Assembly: GCF_004327285.1 (NCBI RefSeq)
Contig: NZ_QJUI01000021.1
Coordinates: 1-64,000 of the forward strand
Length of the DNA: 64,000 nucleotides
Source of the DNA: Phytopseudomonas daroniae
GTDB lineage: Bacteria > Pseudomonadota > Gammaproteobacteria > Pseudomonadales > Pseudomonadaceae
Reading direction: 5' to 3'
Shown: positions 38,457 to 41,959 of the stretch, piece after piece
Layout of the letters: each line of letters starts with the position of its first letter
Numbering within the stretch: the stretch's first letter is position 1
Program-made: the position numbers and the translations under genes
Notes under the pieces: generated by a model
What the model was told of the DNA's origin: nothing
Databases searched by the model: none
What the model saw: the letters and a program-made list of their open reading frames with translations, nothing else

Positions 38457-40472
38457 ATGACTCGTGTTCGTCACTTGCTGATCGGTCTGGCATCGGGTTC
38501 GGCATTATATTCGGGGCTGGCAGCAGCGCTGGGGCTGGGTGAGATAACCCTGAATTCGGCGCTCAATCAGCCGCTGAACGCCGAGATCGAGCTGCTGGCG
38601 GTCGGCGACGACATGAGTGCCTCGGATATCAAGATCGCTCTGGCTCCGGCCGATGCCTTCAATCTCGCTGGCGTCGATCGGCTTCACTTTCTCAATGACC
38701 TGCGTTTCAGCCCGGTTCTGCGCGGCGCCAACAGTGTCGTGCGGGTGATCTCCAACCAGCCTGTGCGCTAGCCCTACCTGAATTTCATCGTCGAGCTGAA
38801 GCGGCCGGGTGGGCAGTTGTTGCGCGAATATACGGTGCTGCTCGACCCGCCGACGTCCTCTTCCTACAACCGCCAGGCCACAGCGGTCGGCAATGAGCAG
38901 TTCACTTCCTACGCGCCACCGCGCCGTACACCTATCGCCAGCCGTGAGGAGCGTTATCAGGTCGCCAGCGGTGAGAGCCTGTGGACGATCGCTTCCAAGC
39001 TGCGTGTCGAGGGTAATCGGATCTCCCTGCAGGATCTGATGCTGGATATCCACGCGCTCAATCCGCAGGCTTTCAGCAACGGCGACATCCACCGCCTGCG
39101 CGCCGGGAGTTCGCTGCTGTTGCCGGATCATGCACGGATGCCGGAGGCTGCACCGAGTCAGCCTGTGGAGGCTGGCGCTGCACCACGTCCTGAAGCGCCT
39201 GCGGAAATCATCCCGGATACCGCGCCTCAACAGCCTGCCGAGCCGCAGGTGGAAGTCATCGCGCAGATCCGCCGTGTGGAAGATGAAGTGGCCAACCGCG
39301 CTGCCGAGAACCTGCAACTGCAGCGGGATCTGCTGGTGATGCAGAGCCAACTGCACGATCTGATGACGCGTATGGAAGCGCGTGACCAGCAGATTGCCCA
39401 GTTGCTGGAGCAGCTCGCCCAGCGCCCGGCTCTTGCCGCGTCTCCCGCAGAAAGTGCTGCGCCGCCCGCAGCCGTTCAGGAGCCCGTTGCAGCAGCCGCA
39501 CAGCAGGCTGTCGCTGAAGGTTTCTGGAGCCTGTGGACTGTGCTGCTGTCATCGGTGCTGGCGCTGTTGGCTCTTGTACTGCTGCTGTTCAAGCGTAAGC
39601 GCAAGCCTGAACCCGACGCTGTTGCCGAGCCTGTGGTTGTCGCGCCGTCGCCGGTACGTTCACCGATTGTCGCACGAACCGAGCCGAACACCACCGACCC
39701 GTTGGAAGGCGCCAATATCTACATCGCCTATGGTCGTCTGGGGGAGGCCGTAACCGCATTGCGTCAGGCTTCCCTGGCCGACCCGCAACGACTGGATATT
39801 CGCTTCCGCCTGCTCGAAGTGCTGGCTCAACAGGGCAGCAGCGGCGCCTTCGCCGAAGAAGAAACGAAGCTGCGTCAGGCCGGTTTCGATGGCGTGCGCA
39901 TCGATCAGCTCAAGGGCCGTTACTCGGCGCTGTTCGCGCTGCCGCTGGAAACGCCGGAGTCCTTCGATTCGCTGGTACCTCTGGAAGGCCTGGATGAACT
40001 GACACTCGAGTTGGACGATGTTCCTGCGCCGGAGCAGAAGAGTCAGGGCGACGATTCCCAACTGAACCTGGACAACCTGTCTCTGGACGCCGACTGGGAT
40101 CTGCTCAGTCCTTTCGTGCCTGGGCGCAAGAAACGTGATGTCGAAGTCGAAAGCGCTCCTGCGCCGAGTGCCGAGCAGTCGACCGATATTCTCGGTCACG
40201 ACGCCCGCAGCCCGTTCGCCAGCTCGATGTTGGTCGAGGAAGAAGGCCCCGAGGATGAATGGCTGGAGTTGGATCCGTTACCTGCGGATGCAGCCGATGG
40301 GCTCGACCGTTTCGTCGCCAACCACGAGAACCTGACCAGGCTCAATCTGGCGATGGCCTACATCGAACAGGATGATCTGGAGGCCGCCTGCGACGTCCTC
40401 AACGAAGTGCTCAGCGAAGGCGACGAGGAGGAGAAGCAGGAAGCTCGCGAGTTGCTTGCACGCATCGCCTGA
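38457..40472 (+). pseudogene. FimV-like LysM protein gene with an in-frame amber codon
   Basis: The reading frame has signal peptide and FimV-type N-domain (GLGEITLNSALNQPLNAEIE) from 38457, TAG at 38769-38771 (codon 105), and then continues open in the same frame to 40472: PYLNFIVELKRPGG, a LysM-like YQVASGESLWTIASKL, a coiled coil, one membrane span (WTVLLSSVLALLALVLLLF) and the FimV C-terminal domain (LTRLNLAMAYIEQDDLEAAC). Homologues usually have Glu in the R-E-P-Y-L-N-F context, so one GAG-to-TAG change explains it. At about 671 codons it is shorter than classical FimV of some 900 residues and its neighbours differ, so it is probably a paralogue. FimV-like proteins act at the cell pole and in type IV pilus function. 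GGGAG precedes the start. Confidence 0.85.
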
Positions 40473-40532: not shown

Positions 40533-40826
40533 ATGACCCAGACCAAAGCCGAAGTGACCATCACCTATTGCACCCAGTGTCAGTGGCTGCTGCGCGCCGC
40601 CTGGTTGGCTCAGGAGCTGCTGTCCACCTTTGCCGACGATCTCGCCAGGGTGAGCCTGGAGCCGGCTACCGGCGGTACGTTCCGCATCCTGTGCAACGGC
40701 GTGCAGATCTGGGAACGCAAGACCGATGGCGGCTTTCCCGAAGCCAAGGTGCTCAAGCAGCGGGTGCGCGATCAGATCGACCCGGCCCGGGATCTGGGCC
40801 ACAGTGATCGGCCTGCGGCAGGTTAG
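40533..40826 (+). CDS. SelT/SelW/SelH-family (Rdx-type) selenoprotein homologue, Cys form
   Basis: This 97-residue thioredoxin-fold protein has the Rdx pattern VTITYCTQCQWLLRAAWLAQ, with Cys-x-x-Cys where some homologues have selenocysteine, and GGTFRILCNGVQIWERK as the middle strand pair. A redox role is likely but the partner is unknown. GGAG precedes the ATG at 40533. Its TAG stop overlaps the TA target duplication of MITE 3, which separates it from the convergent eamA-like gene. Confidence 0.9.
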   Translation: MTQTKAEVTITYCTQCQWLLRAAWLAQELLSTFADDLARVSLEPATGGTFRILCNGVQIWERKTDGGFPEAKVLKQRVRDQIDPARDLGHSDRPAAG

Positions 40827-41090
40827 GGTCTGTTCCCGTTTCACGCACGGCCGCGCCGGAGCCAGTTTTTGCGCGAGGCAAGGCACGAGATGCGAAGTTT
40901 GGCGGGCCAAATGAGCCATCGAGTAACGCCGCATCGCACAAAAACTGGCCCGGCCCTTCGGGTTGCGCGGGAAATGACCTCCGCTGTCGTTGCAGGACTT
41001 GGCAAGGAAATGACCATTCCCTGCGTCCTGCGCCTAACCGGAGGCCATTTCTCGCTGCAACGCGGCTCGCGCTGAAACGGGAACAGACCC
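40826..41090. mobile_element. MITE-like element 3, 265 bp, inserted between two stop codons
   Basis: Both ends read GGGTCTGTTCCCGTTTCA inward, and TA lies on each side (40824-40825 and 41091-41092). The left TA plus the first G of the element forms the TAG stop of the SelW-like gene. The last C of the element plus the right TA forms the TAG stop of the opposite-strand eamA-like gene. Before insertion the two genes would have had overlapping stops (TTAG). Inside are GC-rich, partly repeated sequences (TTTTTGCGCGAGGCA and GCACAAAAACTGG) but no gene. Confidence 0.8.
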
Positions 41091-41959
41091 TAGGCAACCT
41101 TCGGCGCGTGGCTCGAATCGGCCTGCACGGCGCTCATGCACACTGCCAGGATGATCAGGCCTCCCCCGGCGAGCATGCCAAGGCTCGGAGCCTGGCTGAA
41201 CAACAGCCAGGCGAAGCTGATGCCGTAGACCGGCTCCAGGGCGAAGATCAGCGCTGCGCTACGGGCCTTGACGACCCGCAGGCTGGCAACCAGCAGGCTG
41301 TGCGCCACGCCCGTGCAGAACACGCCGAGCAAAGCCAGCCATAGCCACTGTGGCGCGGCGAGACTCTGCAGGGTCGCACCGGCGAATGGCAGGGAGCAGG
41401 CCAGGGCCACGAGGTTCTGGCCCAGTGCAGCCTGAATCGGATCGACGCGTGACGCGACTAGGCGGCCAAGCAGCGACAGCAAGGCGAACAGCAACCCCGA
41501 CAGAATGGCCCACAGCAGGCCCTGGGTATTGTCATCGCTTGGATCCAGGGCGGGTGCGACCATCAGCAGGCCGATACTGACCAGGGCGACCATCAGGTAT
41601 TCGCCAGGCCGTGGGCGTTCGCCCAGTAGCAGAATTTCCAGCAGTACCGTGAAGGCCGGGAAGCTGGCGAACCCCAGGGTCGCGATGGCGACGCCGGACA
41701 CTTGCACCGACTCGAAAAAGGTCAGCCAGTGAGCGCCGAGCAGCAGCCCTCCGAGTACCAGCCAGGGCAACTGGCGGCCCGCGATGCGTAGCGGTTTGCC
41801 AAGCACGACGAGAAACAGGCCCAGTGCGAGCACGGCAAACAGGGCGCGGCCGCTGACGATGGCAATAGGTGAGGTGTTTGCCAGTTCGCCGAATATGCCG
41901 GACAGGCCAAAGGCCAGTGCGCCCAGGTGCAGGCCAAGCAGTGCCTTGCGCGTGGTCAT
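41090..41959 (-). CDS. EamA/DMT-family transporter
   Basis: This 289-residue protein has about ten hydrophobic helices in two EamA repeats, beginning LGLHLGALAFGLSGIFGELA and with a second-half GLLFALLSLLGRLVASRVD. Family members export metabolites or amino acids; the substrate is unknown. The start overlaps the stop of the CsaA-like gene by four bases, so they form an operon. Its stop codon is made by the end of MITE 3. Confidence 0.9.
   Translation of the reverse strand: MTTRKALLGLHLGALAFGLSGIFGELANTSPIAIVSGRALFAVLALGLFLVVLGKPLRIAGRQLPWLVLGGLLLGAHWLTFFESVQVSGVAIATLGFASFPAFTVLLEILLLGERPRPGEYLMVALVSIGLLMVAPALDPSDDNTQGLLWAILSGLLFALLSLLGRLVASRVDPIQAALGQNLVALACSLPFAGATLQSLAAPQWLWLALLGVFCTGVAHSLLVASLRVVKARSAALIFALEPVYGISFAWLLFSQAPSLGMLAGGGLIILAVCMSAVQADSSHAPKVA

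Follow-up and report, generated by a model that had tools for sequence, protein, structure and literature searches.

The window, by which is meant the whole stretch of DNA analysed, comprises 64,000 nt (positions 1-64,000 of contig NZ_QJUI01000021.1) from the assembly GCF_004327285.1 of Phytopseudomonas daroniae, 5.4 Mb in 59 contigs. Within it, two convergent genes are separated by a MITE that supplies one nucleotide to the stop codon of each:

40533..40826, plus strand: gene of the SelW/SelT/SelH (Rdx) family (selW); its TAG stop, 40824-40826, is the TA of the target-site duplication plus the G of the element
40824..40825, no strand: left target-site duplication, TA
40826..41090, no strand: 265-bp MITE, one of about 41 full-length copies genome-wide, similar to a partner IS at its ends alone
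40826..40843, plus strand: left terminal inverted repeat (TIR), GGGTCTGTTCCCGTTTCA, 18 bp, perfect
41073..41090, minus strand: right TIR, the identical 18 bp, GGGTCTGTTCCCGTTTCA, perfect
41091..41092, no strand: right target-site duplication, TA
41090..41959, minus strand: EamA-family transporter gene (eamA); its TAG stop is the complement of 41090-41092, the C of the element plus the duplicated TA

The joints of the insertion read ...GGCAGGT TA [GGGTCTGTTCCCG...CGGGAACAGACCC] TA GGCAACC... A preliminary description of this DNA, made from the sequence alone, had placed a MITE at the stop codons of convergent selW-like and eamA-like genes, and its coordinates and base-level description are right. 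It had also claimed that the element completes TAG for both genes, and this is borne out by the letters: the final G of the selW stop is the first base of the MITE, and the C of the eamA stop (CTA on the plus strand) is its last. Pfam assigns the SelW-like protein to Rdx (PF10262) and the convergent transporter to EamA (PF00892). Read by eye against the nearest relative found with the gene pair, the C-termini lie at an equal codon distance (SelW, ...DRPAAG* vs ...DRPATN*; EamA, ...PKVA* vs ...PKAA*).

The element has what defines a MITE. It is short (265 bp), bounded by 18-bp TIRs, flanked by a duplicated TA and present in many copies, and it carries no transposase gene of its own, the longest listed open reading frame fully inside it encoding 68 amino acids. 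Its RNA would fold strongly (-157.7 kcal/mol, z -10). It has no match in Rfam at gathering scores, and a search of the element for terminator-like or promoter-like sites found none.

Upstream of selW lies a putative fimV-like gene (38457-40472). Its reading frame is interrupted by a TAG at 38769-38771 and then remains open to 40472; the TAG is either a nonsense mutation or a sequence error.

The MITE family and its spread

The genome of P. daroniae contains about 41 full-length copies of the MITE, 40 loci found by similarity and one (L140) by its ends, and a duplicated TA flanks both sides in 26 of the 41 copies examined. The copy closest to the element at 40826-41090 is 97% identical to it and the next 90%, while the remainder fall at about 76-85%; of 39 aligned copies, 24 are at least 97% identical to some other copy. 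The pattern of TA plus TIR (19 positions, at most 3 mismatches) has 2 matches in the 64-kb window where 0.04 would be expected, and a 17-base end, again with at most 3 mismatches, occurs at 149 sites in the genome, as compared with 8 for a reversed control pattern. By these numbers the ends are not due to chance. The sites greatly outnumber the full copies because solo ends, and palindromic micro-copies some 50 bp long, are present as well.

At least nine palindromic mini-copies of 47-68 bp in P. daroniae (loci L141, L142, L143, L144, L150, L154, L156, L162 and L166) keep both TIRs, with at most 3 mismatches, and little between them. Similar short palindromic copies are present in two other genomes, G281 and G154, and in an IMG/VR contig (L177). 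In G281, a MITE-type end lies within about 70-160 bp of the start of at least 12 contigs, and one is similarly placed at the close of contig C7, as though the assembly had been broken by a longer repeated element with such ends.

Within a draw of 298 Pseudomonas genomes that includes P. daroniae, 124 contain a match to the MITE at E <= 0.001, often a partial one. Matches also occur in four plasmid records, one from Halomonas, two from Azotobacter and one from Pseudomonas, and the phage records searched gave no match.

A partner insertion sequence

The duplication of TA first suggested an origin from IS630/Tc1-mariner elements. The genome of P. daroniae has no match to PF13358 (DDE_3), no partner with an IS630-type DDE_3 transposase was found, and the partner whose ends do match belongs to the IS5 family. 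It came to light when viral contigs were scanned for the end pattern. Of the 11 stretches obtained, one (IMG/VR contig L178, 4772-5628) is a complete IS of 857 bp with MITE-type ends, a TA duplication and a transposase of 249 amino acids matching NF033580 (IS5 family) and PF01609. The same IS, with the IS5 family transposase WP_122212308.1, is found in full in five plasmid records of P. avellanae. The first 19 bp of the MITE are exactly those of the left end of the IS and the last 17 bp exactly those of its right end; there is no internal similarity.

Relatives of the L178 transposase (E <= 1e-75) occur in 9 of the 298 Pseudomonas genomes, with nine copies in genome G276. Seventeen IS loci from other Pseudomonas genomes were surveyed (L186-L202). 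The 11 that have both ends, 852-855 bp apart, were counted; all carry a TA duplication, and the target was YTAR in ten, nine of these being CTAG. Two more end pairs, 946 and 1003 bp apart, lack a duplication and were taken as chance pairs. The partner IS is 855-857 bp long, and the MITE has in common with this autonomous IS5-family element its terminal repeats, its TA duplication and its CTAG/YTAR target.

The P. daroniae assembly yielded no transposase gene with MITE-type ends and no match to the L178 transposase at E <= 1e-75. Its four places with a DDE_Tnp_1 domain were rejected as helpers, since their flanking repeats differ from the ends of the MITE. The nearest of these candidates (L173, 1547-2456) encloses a DDE_Tnp_1 transposase stretch between ends reading GGTTCTGTACGAAAAG and sits in CTAG with a TA duplication. 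Single TIR sites near long open reading frames were also considered as autonomous copies and set aside; those at L147, read by eye, suggested no transposase. To judge from its ends, the MITE has probably been mobilised in trans by an IS5-family transposase. The helper is deduced from relatives, because no matching transposase was found in the assembly and the likeness of MITE to IS is confined to the ends.

Choice of target

The flanks of 130 copies were joined: 41 from P. daroniae, 29 best matches in other genomes and 60 further copies. The last formed a test set chosen before their flanks were seen, a selection of the places listed, with 40 (most of them full-length) from the listing for the 298 genomes and 20 from G281 and G154. 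Thirteen copies were dropped, 5 because the joint had no TA, 1 because it lay at the edge of a contig and 7 for similar flanks, leaving 117. Background TA sites came from 3-kb flanks of the copies, from the 64-kb window and from the selW or eamA loci of 60 relatives. Sites were classed with genes called by a codon-usage script rather than from annotation.

The target was YTAR in 75 of 117 insertions, as compared with 1,121 of 11,583 background TA sites (P 1e-45), a background that samples these regions rather than whole genomes and counts some orthologous sites more than once. CTAG was the best target (44 of 117), and outside YTAR the neighbouring bases mattered little, with C mildly favoured in front of it and G behind it. 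The same motif is reported, in the part of the source available, as highly conserved for IS5 of E. coli (PMC10359306), and CTAG or YTAA, likewise from a partial source, as the target of MITEPsy1 (PMC3189936).

YTAR is about ten times rarer within predicted genes than between them (0.66 vs 6.67 per kb), so the preference alone keeps insertions away from genes. Coding hits account for 3 of the 75 YTAR insertions, as compared with 341 of the 1,121 background YTAR sites. By class, the 117 insertions comprise 78 that are intergenic, 18 at a single stop codon, 5 at a double convergent stop and 16 in predicted genes.

Insertions at stop codons

The preliminary description had named a random position of other copies as counting against it, and had proposed a genome-wide count of those on stop codons as a check. 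Both kinds of stop prove to be over-represented. Among the 101 non-coding insertions, 23 hit stop codons where 12.8 were expected from four-mer-matched background (P 0.003), and 5 hit double convergent stops where 0.26 were expected (P 1e-5).

The excess is also seen when only YTAR sites are compared. Stops were then hit in 21 of 72 non-coding insertions and make up 109 of 780 background sites (Fisher P 0.001), a result stable across four gene-calling settings. Single stops contribute modestly (16/72 vs 107/780, 1.8-fold odds, P 0.04) and double stops strongly (5/72 vs 2/780, P 7e-5, about 29-fold odds on a background of two sites); with the selW/eamA locus left out, double stops number 4 of 71 (P 6e-4). 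With flank GC matched too, the figures are 21 vs 11.0 for stops and 5 vs 0.23 for double stops. For the three sets tested separately, the P value of the stop excess is 0.02 (P. daroniae), 0.22 and 0.06. No clear enrichment was seen at convergent intergenic sites, which make up 12 of 51 insertions and 104 of 577 background sites where the context is known.

With the terminal G or C of the element beside it, each duplicated TA reads TAG; a former TAG is thereby unchanged and a former TAA becomes TAG. At 25 places, two of them flagged as duplicates, 30 genes are affected; 29 still end in TAG, and nine of these stops are reconstructed as TAA before the insertion; the one stop lost is at L025. Nine of the ten proteins encoded at the five double stops belong to a Pfam family. 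Copies also lie at the stops of two different dgkA paralogues, one in P. daroniae (L012) and one in G281 (L253).

Empty sites in relatives

The three nearest relatives found to hold both genes are genome G185, P. seleniipraecipitans and P. argentinensis, their EamA proteins being 88%, 79% and 78% identical to that of P. daroniae. In all three the empty site reads selW TGA, 9-10 bp, then CTA (the TAG of eamA), and the P. daroniae lineage lacks about 13 bp that include the selW TGA. The preliminary description had expected an empty site of TTAG with overlapping stops, and had named different gene ends as counting against it; different ends, with no TTAG and no overlap of the stops, are what these relatives have at selW/eamA. 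Joining the flanks of the element suggests that the two stops overlapped before insertion, and had the overlap come first, the empty joint would read GGTTAGGC. The likely target TA is that of the eamA stop.

A search of 398 Pseudomonas genomes for EamA above 69% identity gave only G185 besides P. daroniae, and a second search of 398 genomes, apparently largely the same draw, centred on genome G001, gave only G185 at E <= 1e-112. G001 has the closest SelW (91%), yet no eamA beside selW and no match in the EamA search.

The expectation of overlapping stops at empty sites, which fails at selW/eamA, holds in some relatives at two other double-stop loci. Of the five double stops, which include those of L089 and L254, these two (dgkA/LysR and a pair of cinA-like and TPP-enzyme genes) were compared in relatives along with selW/eamA. 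At dgkA/LysR, where 10 of 14 loci were read, three relatives show the overlap without an element (G185, GGCTAACG; G168, GGCTAGCGG; G261, GGCTAGAAC) and in six there is no overlap of the stops. At the dgkA stop of G001 (L265) a scar of 14 bp, GGTTCAACAGACCC, lies between two TA; it bears one MITE end, and TAG is kept at either side. At this double-stop site P. daroniae carries a full MITE. For the cinA-like/TPP-enzyme pair, 2 of 14 loci were read, by eye, having been missed by a motif search, and both have overlapping stops without the element (G001, GGTTAGCG; G168, GCTTAGCG).

Discussion

The observations are very probably explained by a YTAR-targeting MITE with IS5-family ends whose insertions are filtered by selection, its G-ended repeats making hits on stop codons harmless. 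An IS5-family transposase, postulated from the shared ends, would bind ends of the form GGGTCTGTT...GTTTC, join them to YTAR and duplicate TA. In these GC-rich genomes, YTAR sites lie mostly between genes or at stops, and insertions inside genes would mostly be lost by selection. Hits on stop codons would survive with neither protein changed, because TA followed by G is a stop on either strand. At selW/eamA the target would be the TA of the eamA stop. Either a small deletion would first have fused the eamA stop with the end of selW, with insertion following, or the insertion would have come first, and a short stretch with selW's own stop would then have been lost and replaced by the edge of the element.

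Tolerance of this kind explains the single stops. Host benefit or an evolved stop-preserving design is unproven, and the explanation needs neither. The preliminary description had seen in the stop-preserving ends an advantage for elements with GGG...CCC termini, but the preference for YTAR and the loss of harmful insertions cover much of the pattern, and G-initial ends may simply be those bound by this transposase.

By the letters alone, no arrangement but YTAR lets two convergent genes have the TA of their stops in common. Perhaps overlapping convergent stops are natural safe harbours for G-ended, YTAR-targeting IS5-type elements across Pseudomonas: the palindrome of the target would be that of the shared stop, both stops would be rebuilt, double-stop sites would receive insertions at over ten times the rate of the remaining non-coding YTAR sites, and insertion would leave a footprint of TAA-to-TAG changes and new spacers. 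As a joint reading this is tentative, and we consider it rather less probable than its failure in some part.

Simple tolerance is strained at one point: the double-stop excess is larger than it predicts, while the convergent intergenic excess is slight. Since the first so exceeds the second, some probability must be left to the transposase, or a DNA state at convergent gene ends, directing insertion there, so that enrichment arises at integration. Such direction would account for the double stops among YTAR sites (5 of 72 vs 2 of 780), for the persistence of the excess with four-mers and flank GC matched (5 vs 0.23 expected) and for copies at the stops of two dgkA paralogues in two genomes (L012 and L253). 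We nevertheless think it unlikely, because the counts of double stops are small, single stops are raised only 1.8-fold in odds (P 0.04), copies of the partner IS hit a stop once among 12, and the sequence beyond YTAR matters only mildly (C before, G after). Less likely still is a useful role at convergent ends, as a terminator, a transcript barrier or a stabilising 3' hairpin, for which the element would have been retained. The preliminary description had remarked that the element separates two converging transcripts, and it does part genes that would otherwise abut, with a strong fold (-157.7 kcal/mol, z -10). But palindromic MITEs in general are expected to fold strongly, no terminator-like or promoter-like site was found in this one, and convergent intergenic sites show no clear enrichment (12/51 vs 104/577).

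For the selW/eamA locus by itself, the double stop may be secondary: the element would have entered the CTA of eamA, and a later deletion would have removed the selW TGA and the spacer, with the edge of the element providing a new TAG. The arrangement common to G185, P. seleniipraecipitans and P. argentinensis (selW TGA, 9-10 bp, CTA) argues for this course of events, and we give it not far short of an even chance. Against it, deletion before insertion yields the identical sequence, and the overlap exists without an element in some relatives at dgkA/LysR and at the cinA-like/TPP-enzyme pair.

The tolerance of stop hits by a YTAR-targeting element offers a simple, countable reason for settling harmlessly at gene ends: the target it favours is in itself a mark of stops in both directions, and its terminal base restores the stop on both strands. 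If this is general, then the choice of TAG over TAA and the spacing of convergent genes in GC-rich bacteria may have been shaped in part by such elements, and overlapping stop codons would be predictable as tolerated insertion sites.

The element is an IS5-type MITE, a known kind, though this MITE itself is newly described. The 857-bp IS of L178 and the P. avellanae plasmids resembles it in ends, TA duplication and CTAG target and differs in having a transposase gene. IS5 of E. coli is an autonomous element. Its target likewise has a highly conserved YTAR; in the available part of the report, however, YTAR is described as the duplication (PMC10359306), whereas the P. daroniae MITE duplicates TA only. 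MITEPsy1 of P. syringae pv. phaseolicola is likewise a Pseudomonas MITE, marked "IS5?" and inserted in CTAG or YTAA, but it is 100 bp in length, has ends reading GGAAGGTCTGAAAAAGCC and is reported, in the portion available, with a 4-nt duplication (PMC3189936). No description of the rebuilding of two overlapping convergent stops was found in the literature searched, available in part and with most subscription journals outside it. Stop codons supplied by a repeat are known from the BOX elements of pneumococcus: according to the accessible text, 36 of 58 overlaps with coding sequences fall at the very 3' terminus, where the stop is encoded by the repeat (PMC3049150). BOX is a different repeat, and that text does not describe the rebuilding of both convergent stops. 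Finally, MITE-like elements at the 3' ends of genes are described, in the available parts of the two reports, for enterobacterial RU-1 (PMC2759123) and Coxiella QMITE2 (PMC5896051). In those cases the usual stop may be lost on insertion and the protein lengthened; the P. daroniae MITE does the opposite.
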